From positions 1-34,100 of the forward strand of contig VYAQ01000241.1 in NCBI GenBank assembly GCA_009844885.1: a stretch of DNA of 34,100 nt. The letters run 5' to 3'. Of this stretch, positions 1,490 to 11,741 are shown one piece after another (positions within the stretch are counted from its first letter, which is position 1; each line of letters begins with the position of its first letter). The position numbers were made by a program, and so were the translations under genes. The notes beneath the pieces were generated by a model. It was not told the origin of the DNA, searched no databases, and saw nothing but the letters and a program-made list of their open reading frames with translations. The stretch is from Gemmatimonadota bacterium. GTDB taxonomy: Bacteria > Gemmatimonadota > Gemmatimonadetes > Longimicrobiales > Gaopeijiaceae.

Positions 1490-2835
1490 CCAGGGCTCGC
1501 CGCATGCTCTGGATTCCTGCGCTGTTCGTGGGAACCTCCCTTGCGATCGCGATCGCGACGGGTGCGGCCGTCCTTCTCTACGACGCCCAGTGGCTGGTTC
1601 GGGGCGTGGGCGCGGGTACGGCCGATCCCCTGTACGCGGCCGGCCCGGGGGCCGTGCTCGATGTAACGCAGGGTCTGTTGCGGGCCCTGGCGGTGCTGCT
1701 TGGAGTCGCCACCGTCTCGCTGATCGCGGGGCTGTGGGTGGGCAGCGGCAGTCACAGCGAGGAGGCGGTCCCCGCGGCGGCACGTGGATGGGTGGGGCTT
1801 CTGGTGGCCCTGCTCCTGGGGGCCGGCTTCACGGCCGTATGGGAAGCGATGGCCGGATTCGACGGCGGGGCGGTGGCGCAGGGAGCCGGACTCGCGCTGA
1901 CGGCCGCGCTTCCCGCCTACTTCGCCGGCGGGGTTCTTGGCCGGCTCGGCGGTTTCGCGACGGTGCTCGAAACGAGTGGCAGACGGCAGATCGGGCTTGG
2001 CAGTCTCGTCGGCGCGATTGCCGGATCCCTTCTGGCCGCGACCTTTCTGGGCCGTCCGGTCCTGGCGGTCACGGCGTTTCTAGGCGCCACGGTACTGGCT
2101 GCAGCGGGGGCGCGCTGCCAGGGATGGATCTTCGACCGGGTGCCGCGCCGGCGTCTGGTCCTGCACAGCCCGGACCGTCCCGAACTTCGCTTCGAAGCGT
2201 GGCACACCCTGATTCCGGAAACGACGGTTCACCTGCTGCTTGAAGGCGAACGGGACCTGGCGGTCGATCACCCGCCCAAGGGGGACTGGCGCGCGGCGGT
2301 CGAGAGCACGCTGGCCGAGGACGATGCGGTGTTTTTTGTGGGTGCAGGCAGCTGGTCCGCACAGCCGGACGGGCGGGTCTGGACGATGTACGAGCCGGAC
2401 GCGGCCGTACGGGCTCTGGCGTGCAGGGGATTCGGGTGGGACGATGATCGGATGGCATCTGCTCTCGTTCCCGAGATGCCCGGCCTCACGGTCGTGGCCG
2501 AGTGGGGATCTCTGGGTGAGTCCCTGGCTCAGTCGCAACCGCTGGGGGAACTCCTGCGCGCGTTGCGCGATGTAGAGGTCGAACGCGTCTGGATCCGCGG
2601 TCCGCACGGGCGGTTGCCCGACTCGCTCGCGGATGCGGGGTTGGGGGCGGACATGGAAGTCTCCCGCTACGCGGGGGCGGTCGAAGGCTCCTGGGGGCCA
2701 CCCCGCCTGGCGCCGCGGAGGGACGAGCTCTGGTGCTTCAGCAGGCCATCGGCACCGCCGGGACCGCTGCCGGGCATGAAGCCGTGGCCGCTGCCGGGCC
2801 CGGTGGCGGACGGCCGACAGGAGGACCCGGCGTGA
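1486..2835 (+). CDS. Polytopic membrane protein with a C-terminal soluble domain, function unknown
   Basis: A 449-residue protein I do not recognise. The N-terminal half is hydrophobic, with about six likely membrane segments (roughly residues 9-32, 62-86, 101-119, 128-153, 169-187 and 190-209). A basic stretch (PRRR, about 220-223) follows, and then a soluble domain to the C-terminus with a proline-rich tail. The positive-inside rule would put that domain in the cytoplasm. The ATG at 1486 overlaps the stop of the flavin reductase gene, and its own TGA overlaps the GTG start of the Mre11-like gene (GTGA at 2832-2835). It is therefore embedded in a coupled operon and may anchor or regulate the neighbouring Mre11/Rad50-like pair, but that is inference from position only. 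No catalytic motif was seen. Confidence 0.8.
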   Translation: MTRARRMLWIPALFVGTSLAIAIATGAAVLLYDAQWLVRGVGAGTADPLYAAGPGAVLDVTQGLLRALAVLLGVATVSLIAGLWVGSGSHSEEAVPAAARGWVGLLVALLLGAGFTAVWEAMAGFDGGAVAQGAGLALTAALPAYFAGGVLGRLGGFATVLETSGRRQIGLGSLVGAIAGSLLAATFLGRPVLAVTAFLGATVLAAAGARCQGWIFDRVPRRRLVLHSPDRPELRFEAWHTLIPETTVHLLLEGERDLAVDHPPKGDWRAAVESTLAEDDAVFFVGAGSWSAQPDGRVWTMYEPDAAVRALACRGFGWDDDRMASALVPEMPGLTVVAEWGSLGESLAQSQPLGELLRALRDVEVERVWIRGPHGRLPDSLADAGLGADMEVSRYAGAVEGSWGPPRLAPRRDELWCFSRPSAPPGPLPGMKPWPLPGPVADGRQEDPA

Positions 2836-3920
2836 AGCTGGCGCACATCTCGGACTTGCACCTGGGGTACGGGGGTGCCGGGGCGGGACGGGCCCGGGAC
2901 GTTCTGCGGATCTTCGAGACGGCCCTGGTGCGAATCGCGGAGATCGGGGTGGAGCTGGTGGTCGTGTCGGGCGACGTCTTCGACCACCCCGACGTGACCG
3001 CCACGCCCATCGCGGCCTTCGGACGCGCGGTCCGCACGCTGCGCGAGAGGCTCCCCGGGGTGGTGGTCGCGGTGGCGGCCGGAGCGCGGGACACGCCGTT
3101 GGACGCCGACCGTGACGGGCCGCTCACGGTGGTCGGCGCCCTGGAGTCGGTTGAGGTGGCGTCCAATACCGTCCGTCGGCTCAGCCTGCGCGACGACTCG
3201 GTCAATGTCACCCTGGTGCCGCACAGGGCGGTAATGGGGTCGCGCGCCGTCGATTTGTCACCGGACCCGGATGCCACCTGGAACGTGCTTGTCATGCATG
3301 CCGCGCTGGCGTCGGGACGGTCCCACGCGGTGAGGATACCGCTGGACGGATGGGACTACGTCGCGCTGGGATCCAACCACACCTACACCCGCGTCACCGA
3401 GCGCGCCTGCTACGCTGGCTCTCTCGAACGGGTGGGTGCCGATCCCTGGGCCGAGGCCGCGACAGCCAAGGGGTTCATCACCGTGCGGCTCGGGGCGGAC
3501 AAGGCGCAATCCGGTCGTGGCCCCGGGTCGGGCCACGACGTGACCTTCTGGCCCGTGGAGGCGCGGGCCGCCGTGAGCCTGGCGCCCGTGGAAGCCACGG
3601 GTGGCGGGACTGCGACCGTGACGCGGCGGCTGAGCGAGGCGCTGGGCGGGGTCCCCGGGGGCATCGACGGGAAGCTGTTGCGGATTCCGGTGAGGGGCCT
3701 TTCGGCCGACGACCTCGCCGTGCTCGATCGCGAGGTACTGGCGCGGGTACGGCGCCGGGTGGCCGAGCTGAGGATCGACGCGCTGCCCGGACAGGGAACC
3801 TCGCACGGGATTGGTGGTAGAGGGACACGTCGTGGTCATGGCGCGTCTGGTGCCGGGGTGCCCGAACTCGTGGCTTCCGCGCCGGGTGCGGTCCCGGTGG
3901 CAGAGGGGGCGCAGACATGA
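2832..3920 (+). CDS. Mre11/SbcD-like metallophosphoesterase with substituted active-site residues
   Basis: A 362-residue protein with the calcineurin-like phosphoesterase fold of the SbcD/Mre11 nucleases, which pair with SbcC/Rad50 in double-strand-break processing. Visible motifs: HISDLHLG (D8, H10), SGDVFDHPD (D48), VMHAAL (H156) and DYVALGSNHT followed by YAGSLERV, which matches the Mre11 layout. Two motifs deviate. The usual GNHD is GARD (84-87), so the metal-bridging Asn and catalytic His are missing. The usual GHxH is GSNH (180-183), losing its first His. Strong metal-dependent nuclease activity is therefore doubtful. The GTG start at 2832 overlaps the preceding stop and puts the first motif at residue 5; the frame is open further upstream but only as a shadow. 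The C-terminus is low-complexity Gly/Arg/Ala. Its TGA overlaps the next ATG at 3917. Confidence 0.85.
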   Translation: MKLAHISDLHLGYGGAGAGRARDVLRIFETALVRIAEIGVELVVVSGDVFDHPDVTATPIAAFGRAVRTLRERLPGVVVAVAAGARDTPLDADRDGPLTVVGALESVEVASNTVRRLSLRDDSVNVTLVPHRAVMGSRAVDLSPDPDATWNVLVMHAALASGRSHAVRIPLDGWDYVALGSNHTYTRVTERACYAGSLERVGADPWAEAATAKGFITVRLGADKAQSGRGPGSGHDVTFWPVEARAAVSLAPVEATGGGTATVTRRLSEALGGVPGGIDGKLLRIPVRGLSADDLAVLDREVLARVRRRVAELRIDALPGQGTSHGIGGRGTRRGHGASGAGVPELVASAPGAVPVAEGAQT

Positions 3921-5386
3921 AGATCGACGTGCTCCAGGCGGGCCTGCGCGGACCCGTGCTCGACCTTCAGGACGGGCGTGGTCTGGTTGCGTTCGTCGCC
4001 GATGGCGGTCCGCTGTGGGGAGAGTTCATGTCTTCGCTGCGCGAAGGCTTCACGAGGCCGGGTCGGCCTGGGGGACCCAGGGTCCTGGTACGCACGGGCG
4101 ATGGCACGATGGGGGTGGGCAGCCGGGCCTTCGAGAAGGTGCTGGCACCGATACTGACCGCGCACGTGCTCTCCCGGGATGAATACGCGGCCGTGTGGTT
4201 CGGTGGCGGACCCGTCACGACGTGGCTGTCGGCCGCGGCCACGCTTTGCCAGGGTCCCGAGACGACCCGCAAGGTGCGTGAGTTGGGGCGCATTCTGGCG
4301 CCGGAGGGAGACGGTGGCTTCGTGCGCGGCGGGACGCTGGAGGGGTTCGTGCGCCGCATGATTCGCGAGGCGAAGGAGGACGTGGAGCGTCTGGGCCGGG
4401 CCGGTGAAGGTGTGGAAGCGCTGGAAGCGCAGCTGCGGGAAGCGCGTGGGGAAGCGGCGGAGGTTCGCGGGGACCTGGAAGCGGGAATGATGGCGTGGGT
4501 GCGCGAGCGCCAGGACGCCGAGACGAGGCTGTTGCTGTACCGGGATCGCGAGCGCGAGCTGCGGGACCGCCTCAAGCGCCTCGACGAGGAAGGGGACGAG
4601 GCCACGTGCCGCAGCTGTGGCCAGCCGCTGCAGGACCGCGCCCAGGCCGTCCAGAAGGCTCGCCGCGAGGAATGGGAGGCTGTGGTGCAGGACGGGCGCT
4701 GGTGGCGGAGGCGAAGGGATCAGCTCGAACGCAAACCCGACGATCTCAGGGCGATCGAAACCGGAGCGATGGAGCTGGACAGCACCGTGAACGAGCTGTC
4801 CGAGGAACTGGAGCGCCGGAAGATCCGGGGGCTGGAGCTCGAGGCCGCGATCGGTCGTGTGGACGAATTGGCGGCCCTGGAAGCCCGGCTTGGGAGGCGG
4901 CGCGGGAGCGCCGATATGGAAGAGGTTCGGGCCGAACTCGTGCGCGCCACGCGTGAACGCGTCCGCTCGCTTGTTCACGCCAGGGTGCTGACATTGACTG
5001 GAGGGCGCCTGGCCGGGGCCTTCCCGGCGCTCTTCGCCGACTGGGCCGACGGGGGACGCCGCGGCGGGAAGGAATTCGCGGTGCTGGAGCTGGCGGTCAG
5101 GATCGTATTGGCGGAGCTGGCGGTGGATGCCGGCGTACCGCTGCAATCGGTGGTTCTGCCCGCCGGTCTCAACCGTCTCGGGCGGGAGGATGTCCATCGA
5201 GCGCTGGTGGAACTGGTCCGCCTGTCGCGGCGAATCCCCTTGCTCCTGGTCAAGACCACGCACGGGGTTGCTTCGGCGTTCCCGGAGTGCTTCGACCTGC
5301 TATACCGGGTCGAGGACGTGCCCGAGGGGCGCCGCCTGCGCCGCGACCGATCGGGCCTGGGGACGATCTGGCTGCAGGTCGACTAG
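3917..5386 (+). CDS. Rad50/SbcC-like coiled-coil protein with zinc hook but no recognisable Walker motifs
   Basis: A 489-residue protein laid out like a shortened Rad50/SbcC: an N-terminal globular part (1-140), a charged coiled coil (about 141-228), a CRSCGQPL zinc hook (C231, C234), a returning coiled coil (about 240-350) and a C-terminal globular part. Rad50 family ATPases use Walker A and B from the two ends. Here the N-terminal site reads GGPLWGEFMSS (30-40) with no GKS/T, and the Walker B/D-loop position reads SVVLPAGLNRLG (411-422) with no acidic pair. A GGKE remnant of the signature motif (383-386) and a TTH at the H-loop position (447-449) remain. Real SbcC proteins are about twice this length. 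Coupling to the Mre11-like gene by ATGA supports a complex. It probably does not hydrolyse ATP; the role is unknown. Confidence 0.8.
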   Translation: MKIDVLQAGLRGPVLDLQDGRGLVAFVADGGPLWGEFMSSLREGFTRPGRPGGPRVLVRTGDGTMGVGSRAFEKVLAPILTAHVLSRDEYAAVWFGGGPVTTWLSAAATLCQGPETTRKVRELGRILAPEGDGGFVRGGTLEGFVRRMIREAKEDVERLGRAGEGVEALEAQLREARGEAAEVRGDLEAGMMAWVRERQDAETRLLLYRDRERELRDRLKRLDEEGDEATCRSCGQPLQDRAQAVQKARREEWEAVVQDGRWWRRRRDQLERKPDDLRAIETGAMELDSTVNELSEELERRKIRGLELEAAIGRVDELAALEARLGRRRGSADMEEVRAELVRATRERVRSLVHARVLTLTGGRLAGAFPALFADWADGGRRGGKEFAVLELAVRIVLAELAVDAGVPLQSVVLPAGLNRLGREDVHRALVELVRLSRRIPLLLVKTTHGVASAFPECFDLLYRVEDVPEGRRLRRDRSGLGTIWLQVD

Positions 5387-5411: not shown

Positions 5412-7793
5412 CTAGCGCTGGACCTCCCCCGTCGGGACCGGAACGGCGCCCAGGCGCGTCCACGCCTCCACGCGGTCCTGCAGTACCGCCATGTCATCCA
5501 CGTCGTCGCGGGCGACGGCGTCCTGGCGGAGCGCGCGGTAGACCCAGGCGTAGTAGTTGGGGATTCCCCGCGTCGAACGGTCCGGCCAGTAGTCCCAGTC
5601 GTCGGGAATCCCGGATCGATGAACGAACACGCTGTCGGCCAGCAGCCGCGTGCGCGGAATGTCCACCCACGGCCCGATCACGCCCGCATAGGGCGAGGTG
5701 CCCAGGCTGGCCGTGACCCCCCGCGACGACAGTTCCACTGGGTCCCCGGGCCACAGGCGGAACGCGAGACCCTGCCGGATGACCTGCGGGCGCAGACCGA
5801 ACGTCTGGGCGGCGCTGCCGCTCGAAGCGAAGTAGACGGGCCGGTCGCCGAGGGAGTTCGCGATCGCCGCAAGCGCGAACTGGTGCCAGGGGTAGAGGTA
5901 CTGGCCCGCTGCCATCCTGGCGGTTACGGCACCCAGGTTCACGTCGCGGGGCTCTTCGATCGGCACGTAGCTGCGCACCACCTGGTCGATGGTGGCGTCG
6001 TCCAGATCTTCACGAAAGATCGCGCGCGTCGGTGCCCGTATCGGCTCGTCCACGAGAAGGGGCACCTTGCCGGCAGCTTCTGCCTCGGCCGGATCGTGGG
6101 TGTACATGGCACCGGTGTTCGCCGCCGTGTACGGACGCTGGCACACGATGCGGGTGGGGTCGGCGTCGGGGTCCTGTTCTCCCGTGCAGGGGCGGGTCAG
6201 GCCGCGCAACTGCTTGACGTACCAGTCGGTGTTCAGGTAGGAGGTGACCGCCACGGTGACGTCGCGCCTGATGCCCTCCACCTCTTGCAGATACCAGAGC
6301 GGAAAGGTGTCGTTGTCGCCGTTCGTGAAGAGGAGCGCGTAGGGCTCGACGCTCATGAGGAGGTTGTAGGCCCAGTCCCGTGCGGCGTAGTCCCCGTCAC
6401 GGCTTGCCCAGCCGAAGTTCAGCACAAGGGGGATCGCCGCCAGCGCGAGCACCGGCGCCGTGTACCCTGCTGGTCGCCCTGACCTGCGCGTCAACCGGTC
6501 CCAAAGGGCCGCGATGCCGATGCCTGCGACAAGACCCCACACGGAGAAGCCGACGACGAAGAAGTAGTCCCGCTCACGCACCTCCTTCACCTGATCCGGT
6601 GTGAGGGCGCCCATCCGGTCCATCGCCCGCTGGAGGTCGTCACCGTCCAGATTCGGCATCGAGTACCCGTACTTGAAGTTCAGATAGAAAACGAGTCCGG
6701 CCGAGAGCACTCCGAAGAGCGAGATCAGGTACAGCCAGCTGGCCCGGTCGCGCCGATAGTGTTCGGCCAGACCGAACACCCCCAGTCCGATGAACAGAGC
6801 CGTCAGCGCGAGCCTGCTGTTGCCGAAGAGGACGTCGTTGGGGGACAGACCACGCGCCCACTGCCAGTCGAAGTACTGAAGCCAGTTCTGTATCTGCGAT
6901 GTGAGATGCGCCTGGCGGGGAAGCAGGGGAGGCTTGTCGTACTGCTCCCGCTGGAGTGCTTCGGAAAGGTCCTCGCACCCGGCGATCCCGTAGGTGACGA
7001 TGCTCCCCAGTGCCTCGCCCACGCCCTCGCAGGTCGGCTCCGCTTCGTTGATCACGGGGCCGAGTCCCGAACGCACGGGAAGGAACAGGTGAATGCTGAG
7101 GCCCGCAACGACTGCCGCGATCCCGACCGGATACAGCCATGTGCTGGCGAAAACGCGGGGGCGGACCGCGAGAACGAAGACGAGCAGCGCGGGGGCCGCC
7201 AGGAATGCCATCAGGTGATTGCCGACCGAGAGCGCAAGGAGGAAGACGATCAGCAGGAGGATGTTGTCGTTTCCGGGCTGGCCGATGCGTTCTCTCCAGC
7301 GGAAGGCGAGCCAGGACAGGAGCGCGATCGTGAACAGCGAGACGGTGTAGACCTTCTCGTTGACGTTGGACTGGTTCCAGACGGTGAAGGCCGTCGCGCT
7401 CACCAGGACCGCCGCCGCGGCCCCGACGAGCTGGAAGCGGTGGCTGTCCGAGAAATGGCGGAGGATGTGGTGCACGACCAGGAACCACAATCCGTGGGAA
7501 AGCGCGCCCATCAGCGCGGAGAAGAGGTTGATGCTCACGGCGGCGGAGAGTCCCAGCGGGCTGAGAATGATCTCCCAGGTCCGCGCCAGGACCACGAACA
7601 GCGGATTCCCGGGCGGGTGGGGTATTCCGAGAATGTGAGCGGTCGCGATGTATTCGCTGGTGTCCCAGAACGCCGTGGTGGGGGCCAGGGTCAGGGCGTA
7701 CAGCAGTCCCACGCTCGTGGCCGCCGCCGCAGCCCAGAGATACGGTGGGCGGCTTTGGGTGGCAACTCCGGAGGTTGTATCCGTCGGACGCAT
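5412..7793 (-). CDS. DUF2723 / TMEM260-type membrane glycosyltransferase (GT-C)
   Basis: A 793-residue integral membrane protein of the DUF2723 (TMEM260) family, related to protein O-mannosyltransferase-like GT-C enzymes that take a lipid-linked sugar donor and act on the outer face of the inner membrane. The hallmark N-terminal block is clear: a first membrane helix (about 18-36), then APTTAFWDTSEYIATA with the acidic pair D44/E47 typical of GT-C loop 1, and GIPHPPGNPLF. About a dozen helices follow. The C-terminal third is soluble and carries the family block DYAARDWAYNLL and NGDNDTFPLWYLQ. The ATG at 7793 has AAGGAGA about 8 bases upstream. It is a single gene, divergent from trpE, with its stop 25 bases from the convergent Rad50-like gene. 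Substrate unknown; in other bacteria relatives modify secreted proteins or cell-surface glycans. Confidence 0.9.
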   Translation of the reverse strand: MRPTDTTSGVATQSRPPYLWAAAAATSVGLLYALTLAPTTAFWDTSEYIATAHILGIPHPPGNPLFVVLARTWEIILSPLGLSAAVSINLFSALMGALSHGLWFLVVHHILRHFSDSHRFQLVGAAAAVLVSATAFTVWNQSNVNEKVYTVSLFTIALLSWLAFRWRERIGQPGNDNILLLIVFLLALSVGNHLMAFLAAPALLVFVLAVRPRVFASTWLYPVGIAAVVAGLSIHLFLPVRSGLGPVINEAEPTCEGVGEALGSIVTYGIAGCEDLSEALQREQYDKPPLLPRQAHLTSQIQNWLQYFDWQWARGLSPNDVLFGNSRLALTALFIGLGVFGLAEHYRRDRASWLYLISLFGVLSAGLVFYLNFKYGYSMPNLDGDDLQRAMDRMGALTPDQVKEVRERDYFFVVGFSVWGLVAGIGIAALWDRLTRRSGRPAGYTAPVLALAAIPLVLNFGWASRDGDYAARDWAYNLLMSVEPYALLFTNGDNDTFPLWYLQEVEGIRRDVTVAVTSYLNTDWYVKQLRGLTRPCTGEQDPDADPTRIVCQRPYTAANTGAMYTHDPAEAEAAGKVPLLVDEPIRAPTRAIFREDLDDATIDQVVRSYVPIEEPRDVNLGAVTARMAAGQYLYPWHQFALAAIANSLGDRPVYFASSGSAAQTFGLRPQVIRQGLAFRLWPGDPVELSSRGVTASLGTSPYAGVIGPWVDIPRTRLLADSVFVHRSGIPDDWDYWPDRSTRGIPNYYAWVYRALRQDAVARDDVDDMAVLQDRVEAWTRLGAVPVPTGEVQR

Positions 7794-7874: not shown

Positions 7875-9367
<1,493 letters not shown>

Positions 9368-9371
<4 letters not shown>

Positions 9372-10747
9372 AGCTCAGCCAGTTCGTCGTAGAGGTGGAT
9401 CAGCGTGTCGATCCCCTTTTCGAAGCAGTCCGTCGCGAACCACTCGTTCGGGGCGTGCATGTTCGCACCCGGGAGCGCGAATCCGAGGAGCAGGGAGTTG
9501 GCACCGAGGATTTCCTCGAGTTCCACGACGATGGGGATGCTGCCGCCCTCGCCCGTGAGCACGGGACGGGTGCCGAAGGAGCGCTCCAGCGCATTGGCCG
9601 CCGCGGTGAACAGCGGCCCCTCCGGCTGGGCCAGCCACGGCCGCCCGCCGTGCAGTTCGACGACCGTGACCTCCACGCCGGGGGGTGCCACGCGCGCCAT
9701 ATGCTCCTCCAGCAGCACCTTGACCCGGTCGGGAGACTGATCGGGGACCAGCCGGAAGCTGACCTTGGCGGCTGCCCGTGCCGGCAGAACGGTCTTCGCT
9801 CCCTCGCCCGTGTATCCCGACCACATGCCGTTGACGTCACAGGAAGGCCGAATCCAGAGACGTTCGAGCGGAGAGTAGGCGTGCTCTCCGCCGGCGGGTA
9901 TCGTACCGACCTCGCGGGCGTAGCCGTCTGCGTCGAACGGGAGGCCGCGGATCCCCTCCAGGGTGTCCTGCGGCGGGGTGCGCACGTCGTCGTAAAAGCC
10001 GGGAATGGCGATTCGTCCGGTCTCGTCGTGCAGTTCTCCGATGATCCGGGCCAACGCATTGGCCGGGTTGAGCACCGCCCCGCCGTAGGCACCCGAGTGA
10101 AGGTCCGAGGTGGGTCCCGCGGCGTGGATCTCGAAGTAGGCCAGTCCCCGGAGGGAGAAGAGGAGAGACGGAATCCCGGGGGCGAACATGGCCGAATCGG
10201 AGATGACGACGGTGTCGGCCGCGAGACGGTCGCGGTGTTCCCTGACGAACGGAACGAGGTTGGGCGAACCGACCTCTTCTTCGCCCTCGGCCAACACGAC
10301 GACGTTTACCGGCAACCGGCCCCGGGTGGCGAGGTGTGCTTCCAGCGCCTTGATGTGCAGGAAAAGCTGCCCCTTGTCGTCCGCTGAACCACGTGCGTAG
10401 ATGCGCCCGTCACGGATGTCCGGTTCGAAGGGAGGCGTGTCCCACAACTCCAACGGCTCCACGGGCTGCACATCGTAGTGGCCATAGATGAGGACCGTCG
10501 GGGCCTGTGGGCCGGCGCCGCGCCACTCTCCGACGACCACTGGATGACCCGGGGTTGCGATCACCTCGGCGTCCAGTCCCGCGCTTGCCAGCCGCCCCCG
10601 CACCCAGTCGGCTGCATGGGCCGTGTCGGCGTCGTGCTCCGATTTCGCGGAAACGGACGGAATGCGCAGGAATTCGTCGAGTTCCCGGTAGAACCTCACG
10701 CGTTCCCGCGTGGCGAAGTCGATGGGGTCTTTGATCGCCTCTGACAA
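9368..10747 (-). CDS. M20 family metallo-dipeptidase
   Basis: A 459-residue di-zinc peptidase of the M20 family, the CNDP-like dipeptidase branch related to ArgE/DapE, probably cleaving dipeptides in the cytoplasm. Metal and catalytic residues are visible: GHYDVQP (H90, D92), ARGSADDKGQ (D123, bridging), AEGEEEVGSPN (catalytic Glu plus metal Glu, 156-158), VISDSAMF and the C-terminal GANMHAPNEW (metal His). The start is TTG at 10747; it has GGAGG (10754-10758) six bases upstream and gives the normal family length, whereas no ATG fits. It is the last gene of a minus-strand group, 16 bases after the small membrane-protein gene. Its stop overlaps the trpE stop in the shared CTAG at 9368-9371. 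Exact substrate unknown. Confidence 0.92.
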
Positions 10748-10753
10748 GGGTCG

Positions 10754-10758
10754 CCTCC
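10754..10758 (-). promoter_or_regulatory. Ribosome binding site deciding a TTG start
   Basis: GGAGG on the minus strand lies six bases before the TTG at 10745-10747. It supports TTG as the start of the M20 dipeptidase, which has no suitable ATG. Confidence 0.7.
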
Positions 10759-10763
10759 GCTCC

Positions 10764-11042
10764 TCAGGTGAGGCCCTTGATCCCCCATCGGTAGACCCAG
10801 GTCATCAGCGCGGCGAAGCCGACCGCGCCGCCCATTCCCCCGATGCTGAGCGCGACGGGGTGGTCGAATTCGAAGATGCCCACGCCCAGCATTCCGCCGA
10901 TGACGGCAGCGAATGCGCCGAGGAGGCAGAGGAGGCGCGTATGCCCGGGGGTCGTATCGGGACGCCTTACCACCAGCTTCATGGCGAGCCCGACGACCGC
11001 GCCCATCACGATCCAGATACCTACACCGATCCAGTTTTCCAT
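10764..11042 (-). CDS. Small membrane protein, YeaQ/YmgE/GlsB-like
   Basis: A 92-residue protein with three likely membrane helices (about 4-24, 36-57 and 66-86). Its glycine-rich first helix, WIVMGAVVGLAMKLV, and the later GAFAAVIGGMLGVGIF and GGMGGAVGFAAL recall the GlsB/YeaQ/YmgE small membrane family (sometimes called transglycosylase-associated), whose members are often general-stress proteins. The match rests on pattern, not alignment. The start is ATG at 11042; a GGAAGGAAG lies rather far upstream, so initiation may depend on coupling to the gene before it, which ends 9 bases away. It sits between a PspA-like coiled-coil gene and the M20 peptidase, a grouping that would fit envelope stress, but this is inference. 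Confidence 0.75.
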   Translation of the reverse strand: MENWIGVGIWIVMGAVVGLAMKLVVRRPDTTPGHTRLLCLLGAFAAVIGGMLGVGIFEFDHPVALSIGGMGGAVGFAALMTWVYRWGIKGLT

Positions 11043-11051
11043 GGCCCCAAT

Positions 11052-11702
11052 CTACTTCCTTCCCATACGGCGCTTCAACTCGTCCAGACGCGAGTCGATC
11101 GCTTCCTCCCTGCGCGACCGCTCGAGTTCCTCGTCAAACTCGCCCGCGTCGTCGAAGAGCGAGCTGCCGGCCTCGGCGCCGGCCTCGGTGTCGCCGATCT
11201 TCTCCGCCATGCGGTCCAGTTCCCCGAACAGATCGTCCGCACCGAGGACCGAGTCGCGCGCCTTCGTTCGGCCCGCCTGGGCGGCCAGGGCGCTGCGGTC
11301 GGCCCGTGCCTTCTTGATCTGGGCCAGCATGTCGGCGTACTCGGTTTCGCCGAGGCGGATCTCGGCCTCGATGGCTTTCGCCTTGTCGCTCAACACGCGT
11401 TGCCGGGCGGTGTGCTTTTCCGCAAACTCCGCCGCGACCTCGGCCGTGGCGGTGTCACCGATCTTGCTGGCGAGTTCTTCGCGCCGCCGGCAAACCTCGG
11501 CCTCCCGGCCCTCCGCCTCGGCCCGCTTGCGCGCCCTCGCCAGCTGTTCCTTCAGCCCTTCGAGCCCCGCCCTGGTTGCAACGGCCTCCTTCTGCATTCC
11601 CCGAATGAGCCCGTCCACCGCCTCCGGCACGGCGTCCCGTTCCAGCTCGCGGTTGAAGTTGTCGACGGCCTCCCGGAAGGCCCGGCGCAGATTCTCGAAC
11701 AT
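11052..11702 (-). CDS. Coiled-coil protein, PspA/IM30-like
   Basis: A 216-residue, highly charged protein that is almost wholly helical. It opens with an amphipathic stretch MFENLRRAFREAVDNFN, similar to the membrane-binding N-terminus of PspA/IM30 proteins. Long heptad-rich segments follow (about 45-75 and 85-150), then an acidic linker and a basic tail ending RRMGRK. PspA proteins support the inner membrane under stress. Length (PspA is about 220) and helical layout fit, but I cannot align it confidently, so a generic coiled-coil protein remains possible. It lies 39 bases downstream of the E1-alpha gene on the same strand and 9 bases before the small membrane-protein gene, so they may be co-transcribed. 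Confidence 0.7.
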   Translation of the reverse strand: MFENLRRAFREAVDNFNRELERDAVPEAVDGLIRGMQKEAVATRAGLEGLKEQLARARKRAEAEGREAEVCRRREELASKIGDTATAEVAAEFAEKHTARQRVLSDKAKAIEAEIRLGETEYADMLAQIKKARADRSALAAQAGRTKARDSVLGADDLFGELDRMAEKIGDTEAGAEAGSSLFDDAGEFDEELERSRREEAIDSRLDELKRRMGRK

Positions 11703-11741
11703 GGTTCAAATGTAGCACGCTGACCGGGGTGCGGCGGCCAT

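Follow-up and report, generated by a model that had tools for sequence, protein, structure and literature searches.

Throughout one family of mostly uncultured Gemmatimonadota bacteria, a gene pair related to Mre11–Rad50 (MR) has lost motifs of catalysis while keeping its zinc-hook arm, its head folds and, in most lineages, the first metal site of the nuclease. The pair described here lies in a 34,100-nucleotide (nt) window (the whole stretch of DNA analyzed) of contig VYAQ01000241.1, and comprises D, a nuclease-like subunit, and C, a short Rad50-like subunit. Judging from sequence, we consider the pair on balance probably a nuclease-dead, ATP-independent, hook-dimerized DNA tether or scaffold, and hold this view with modest confidence. 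The features concerned are:

2832–3920, + strand: D, Mre11/SbcD-like phosphoesterase with capping domain; 362 amino acids (aa), GTG start at 2832
3917–5386, + strand: C, short Rad50-like protein with ATP-binding cassette (ABC) head fold, coiled coil and zinc hook; 489 aa, ATG start at 3917
4508–4744, + strand: hook core of C, residues 198–276 (RQDAET...KPDD), with CRSC at residues 231–234

In the window D and C are two separate genes, not one chain, and the start of C overlaps the stop of D by 4 nt, in agreement with the coordinates and overlapping SbcD-like and SbcC-like genes of a first-pass annotation of this DNA. We drew sequences from 59 genomes (the window's own and relatives) and from 121 genomes for the family, queried with C of genome G028. 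The named loci counted below are the best 80 of 195 related stretches; every title names Gemmatimonadota or a lower taxon of that phylum, in several cases Longimicrobiales. Single absences are weak evidence because the genomes are mostly drafts, of 60–100% completeness.

D has the Mre11 phosphoesterase and capping fold and matches Pfam Metallophos (E 1.7e-5), with weak matches to SbcD/Mre11 models (TIGR00619, 31.7 bits, below the NCBIfam cut-off of 77.65). Residue roles and numbers are those of Pyrococcus Mre11, which we take to carry over to D. On this numbering the window protein retains all four first-metal ligands (D8, H10, D49 and H208); at the second site H173 remains, whereas N84 and H206 are gone, and catalytic H85 has become Arg, residue 86 of D. 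GARD stands in the columns of GNHD, and GSNH in those of GHxH, when D is aligned with canonical relatives, as the annotation had read them. Across 69 family D rows, D8 is present in 68, H10 in 67, D49 in 66 and H208 in 64; among second-metal ligands N84 is found in none, H173 in 39 (the window included) and H206 in four; the H85 column holds Arg in 67 rows and Ser in two. Two of these rows are incomplete: a contig end truncates G013, and the D of G115 is broken, so that its columns for H173, H206 and H208 carry no weight against the motif. The two-metal active site with its catalytic His is absent from the window and family-wide. Misalignment of the motifs is ruled out, as identical replacements occupy identical columns across the 69 rows and relative to canonical sisters. 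Sister-family D rows are canonical in 14 of 15 cases. The exception, G054 (L047 / L201), has a nuclease with GDRD and GHHP beside a Rad50 partner that retains its motifs, and its contig C23 has additional SbcD-like and SbcC-like matches; its nuclease motif loss is probably an independent change.

C has a Rad50-type ABC head fold, found no match in a Pfam search up to E 1, and has lost its ATP motifs, as the annotation claimed. Its GGPLWGEFMSS aligns with the Walker A stretch GPNGAGKST of canonical relatives, its SVVLPAGLNRLG aligns with their Walker B/D-loop LLILDEVFGSLD, and its signature motif is likewise altered. These alignments used 59 family and four sister C rows; seven family and eight sister rows were left out where a boundary pattern failed, and the truncated G058 was not entered. 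A pattern check of 70 family and 13 sister rows, accepting CxxC anywhere in a row, found Walker A in 0/70 family rows, the strict Walker B/D-loop pattern in 0/70, and SGG[EQ] within the last 200 residues in two (G113 and G114). CxxC is present in 67 of the 70, the other three being fragments of 102–161 aa. Twelve of the 13 sister rows have Walker A, Walker B/D-loop and CxxC alike, and the remaining one (G058) ends before Walker B. Of the named loci, three have Walker A, all of them canonical sisters, and 80/80 have CxxC. One further C row set omitted four fragments (G008, G013b, G032 and G034). The CRSC of the window is such a CxxC hook on a coiled coil, again as annotated; the hook Cys residues are invariant in sets A2 and A3, and the hook core is the best-conserved part of C in the family.

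The annotation had held that catalytic motifs were lost in both partners. This stands for the ATPase, for second-metal N84 and H206 and for catalytic H85, and fails for the first-metal ligands and H173, which are kept. The homolog comparison it had proposed shows the motif losses shared across family rows, with the sisters canonical.

Constraint has shifted from the heads, in sisters, to the hook arm, in the family. Mean pairwise identity among 12 sisters is 0.78 and 0.84 for the heads and 0.55 for the hook arm; among 66 family rows it is 0.24 and 0.31 for the heads and 0.57 for the hook arm, the valid comparison being hook versus heads within each set, because the family rows form a broader set than the sister rows. 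Selection on the pair is purifying in the window's genus. When the window genome is compared with three close relatives, the ratio of non-synonymous to synonymous substitution rates (dN/dS) is 0.12–0.15 for D and 0.13–0.18 for C, against 0.13–0.17 for RsgA and 0.13–0.16 for TrpE as yardsticks at the same locus. Other neighbors give 0.09–0.10 (DUF2723-like gene), 0.14–0.23 (Memb, a predicted membrane protein) and 0.25–0.29 (flavin reductase). Comparisons between other genome pairs of the genus give 0.12–0.46. Canonical SbcD (0.18) and SbcC (0.29–0.30), measured in two comparable relatives, are no lower than D and C.

Those canonical genes are a second pair in the window genome, at C221, which the annotation had suggested looking for. 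By inspection it has GNHD, GHIH, Walker A, a CPVC hook, signature and Walker B; its SbcD lies above the curated cut-off and its SbcC below, as in 13 of 14 control genomes. A further pair, at C162, is presumably YhaO/YhaN-like. Because the replacements recur, dN/dS is housekeeping-like and the second sbcCD looks canonical, we conclude, with the annotation, that the pair is a conserved subfamily and not a product of decay. SbcD above cut-off is found in 39 of the 121 family genomes: 23/23 of the window's genus, 11/11 of genus g12 and five others. A C match is present in 94 of the 121 (one of them, G090, marginal at E 5.5e-4); SbcD above cut-off occurs in 23 of these and is lacking in 71, and 16 of the 27 genomes without a C match have it. 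Within the window's genus, g1, SbcD above cut-off belongs to one or other of two score classes (E of roughly 1e-51 to 1e-56, or of 1e-34 to 1e-40), perhaps reflecting replacement by transfer. An open reading frame (ORF) that by eye resembles a HerA ATPase precedes SbcD at C221 (L058:839-3571), and a similar one lies upstream of a canonical pair in G041 (L203:4459-6546); the HerA-like ORF gave no Pfam match at 0.01.

The pair sits in a recurrent neighborhood:

4–861, + strand: RsgA GTPase, syntenic upstream marker
839–1489, + strand: flavin reductase, syntenic upstream marker
1492–2835, + strand: Memb, predicted multi-pass membrane protein upstream of D, syntenic; its stop overlaps the D start
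5412–7793, − strand: TMEM260/DUF2723-like gene, syntenic downstream marker
7875–9371, + strand: TrpE, syntenic downstream marker

The order RsgA, flavin reductase, Memb, D, C, DUF2723-like gene, TrpE recurs as far as contigs reach. Among the 80 named loci, three of them sister loci, RsgA accompanies the pair in 56, the DUF2723-like gene in 50, flavin reductase in 48 and TrpE in 36. That other genomes have this locus too makes contamination of the window's genome bin unlikely. Sister families carry a canonical pair at the syntenic locus; flavin reductase is present in nine of 11 sister loci, the DUF2723-like gene in three and TrpE in two. In a tree of D without an outgroup, family and sister rows are split by one branch (100/100); with SbcD and YhaO-like outgroup rows, the family and sister groups each receive 97/94. 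The outgroup root is weak (89/81, with very long outgroup branches), and in the tree without an outgroup long branches meet between the sisters and the window's clade. Both trees omitted G013 and G115 and dropped X letters; the first also omitted G031b, whose D is cut by a contig end and which is labeled split in the outgroup tree. The best NCBIfam model for two sister C proteins is Rad50 PRK03918, below cut-off. Given the split in the D tree and the locus shared with sisters, the dead pair most likely goes back, by vertical descent, to a canonical archaeal-type Mre11–Rad50 pair in the same chromosomal position.

Many family members are, like known Mre11/Rad50 fusion proteins, Mre11-like and then Rad50-like in one chain. 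A single open frame encodes both D and C in 31 of 40 further family genomes (picked from the C-match list outside the window's genus and spread over genera), in G003, G015, G027 and G031 of an earlier set, and at 47 of the 77 named loci with a D, these sets overlapping. The tree holds six switches between fused and split states, five of them forced by well-supported branches, and gain and loss are not distinguishable. Such fusions are already known, bacteria included; Mimivirus R555 is reported to have Walker A, Walker B and the D-loop, and in two other fusions one P-loop segment is reported missing (PMC3175470). By comparison, this family has lost all ATP motifs; the known fusions are sporadic, whereas in this one bacterial family fused and split forms alternate, and the window pair is unfused.

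With canonical Mre11–Rad50 and SbcD–SbcC, the D/C pair shares both subunit folds, gene coupling and a coiled coil with a CxxC hook; it differs from them in lacking the second metal site, the catalytic His, Walker A, signature and Walker B. C is also short: complete, separate copies in the window's genus have 426–509 aa, against about 800–815 aa in sisters. Lamassu LmuB, too, is Rad50-like with a coiled coil, and when three window proteins were scanned with PADLOC, C matched LmuB (E 2.2e-5). The match covers residues 156–342, the coiled coil and not the heads, which lack ATP motifs, and a Lamassu identity seems unlikely. The phosphoesterase-fold B subunits of eukaryotic replicative polymerases kept an Mre11-like fold structurally after catalysis was lost; unlike D, they have no Rad50-like hook partner. 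Literature searches of open PMC papers returned no direct precedent for a motif-dead form of MR.

We suggest that a canonical archaeal-type pair was turned, at the same locus and in one family, into a non-catalytic scaffold centered on the zinc hook. D would use a one-metal pocket, perhaps with the new Arg, to bind DNA ends or branches, or some other phosphate ligand, without cutting; C would be unable to switch between closed and open states by ATP; and Zn(Cys)4 at the hook would hold two units together constitutively, so that they act as a passive tether or offer a platform to other repair factors. The metal site retained in most lineages, the near-fixed Arg, the head folds and, most of all, the hook arm favor such a tether or scaffold over a relic or a working nuclease. 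The structural or regulatory role first proposed for the pair is likewise an inference. A fuller version is tentative: a separation-of-function MR, an ATP-independent and nuclease-free zinc-hook tether whose pocket might still grip DNA ends, Arg taking the place of both the second metal and the catalytic His; it would have been fused repeatedly and, in most of the family, be the sole descendant of this MR lineage. Whether MR complexes have a structural tethering role independent of cutting and ATP cycling is a question usually approached through mutants; in this case evolution seems to have separated the two and preserved the result family-wide, with canonical syntenic sisters as built-in controls, and the system would permit study of the hook without working heads. 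It also cautions that a Metallophos- or SbcD-like annotation need not mean a nuclease.

Several observations weigh against this reading. C was not matched in G011 or in 11 genomes of genus g12, and in G009 (L220, G009:C19) RsgA, Memb, the DUF2723-like gene and TrpE lie in order with D and C absent; flavin reductase was likewise not found at that locus. The G009 absence is a loss within the window's genus, and together these cases indicate that the pair is dispensable. (Two genomes counted without a C match, G008 and G013, carry fragments of the pair.) D49 and H208 are also lost in G104, G105 and G106 (one genus; L095, L096, L097), where the metal pocket is probably gone and the fused protein is nonetheless retained, and G023 has lost D8, H10 and H208; therefore the first metal is not required everywhere. 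In G115 (L106 / L141) the nuclease half is broken to a 200-aa fragment, its relatives being fused, which seems to be decay or an assembly error. The window (CRSC) and most of its genus no longer have the proline of a CPxC hook, and dN/dS of C reaches 0.46 (G006/G010). The window D also appears to lack Rad50-binding helices: by inspection its tail is of low complexity from about residue 320, where they are expected. The model of a fused homolog has two helices after the cap, and this model can be aligned with 3tho_B as far as its residue 358. The conserved complex put forward in the annotation is consistent with gene coupling and with natural fusions in relatives; given the tail, a D–C complex in the window is not assured.

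Of the other explanations, an unlikely one that fares best is that the pair regulates or antagonizes another MR-type system, its hook or coils pairing with SbcC or a YhaN-like protein, or D competing for ends, to tune a live nuclease. The window genome holds both the C221 and C162 pairs, and every genome of its genus has SbcD above cut-off; most genomes with a C match, however, have no such SbcCD to tune, since 71 of 94 lack SbcD above cut-off, though a YhaO-like partner could act there. Also, by inspection, the hook arm resembles that of sister-family Rad50 and not the CPVC hook of C221. Slightly less likely still is a changed but active one-metal phosphoesterase, its conserved Arg binding or activating the phosphate of a new substrate. 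First-metal ligands kept in 64–68 of 69 rows and Arg in 67 do speak for a preserved pocket; however, known two-metal phosphoesterases require both metals, the second-metal Asn and catalytic His are gone in 69/69, one lineage lacks first-metal ligands, and the partner lacks ATP motifs.

Improbable as well is a membrane-anchored scaffold, in which Memb, D and C would act as one unit that anchors DNA or the chromosome to the membrane. Of 72 named loci, 56 have Memb as the gene directly upstream of D, and in 55 the Memb stop falls −5 to +8 nt from the D start; these 72 come from the 77 with D (the other five have <900 bases upstream), and they include three sister loci (L191, L193 and L194), none with an adjacent Memb. 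Against a joint unit, Memb homologs lie upstream of sister pairs in 10 of 11 loci (one weak), so that the neighborhood is older than motif loss, several fused loci lack Memb, and G009 has Memb without D and C. The sister Memb–D distance is mostly at least 170 nt and about 15 nt in G037, and a gain of Memb as a partner along with motif loss is ruled out by these homologs. Memb is a possible partner of D/C; in two relatives scanned it has a weak spermidine-synthase/methyltransferase-like C-terminal domain, and among the upstream genes of L115-L190 some copies are short, with the membrane part only. Slow decay of a redundant pair toward loss is very improbable: the absence in G009, the unmatched G011 and g12, the broken G115 and the further degraded G023 and G104–G106 would fit it, but dN/dS like that of housekeeping neighbors, the near-invariant new Arg and open frames across a deep family tree do not.

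Elsewhere in the window, an ORF at 10710–11723 (+ strand) has dN/dS of 1.2–1.9 relative to close relatives and probably represents a real gene read in the wrong frame.
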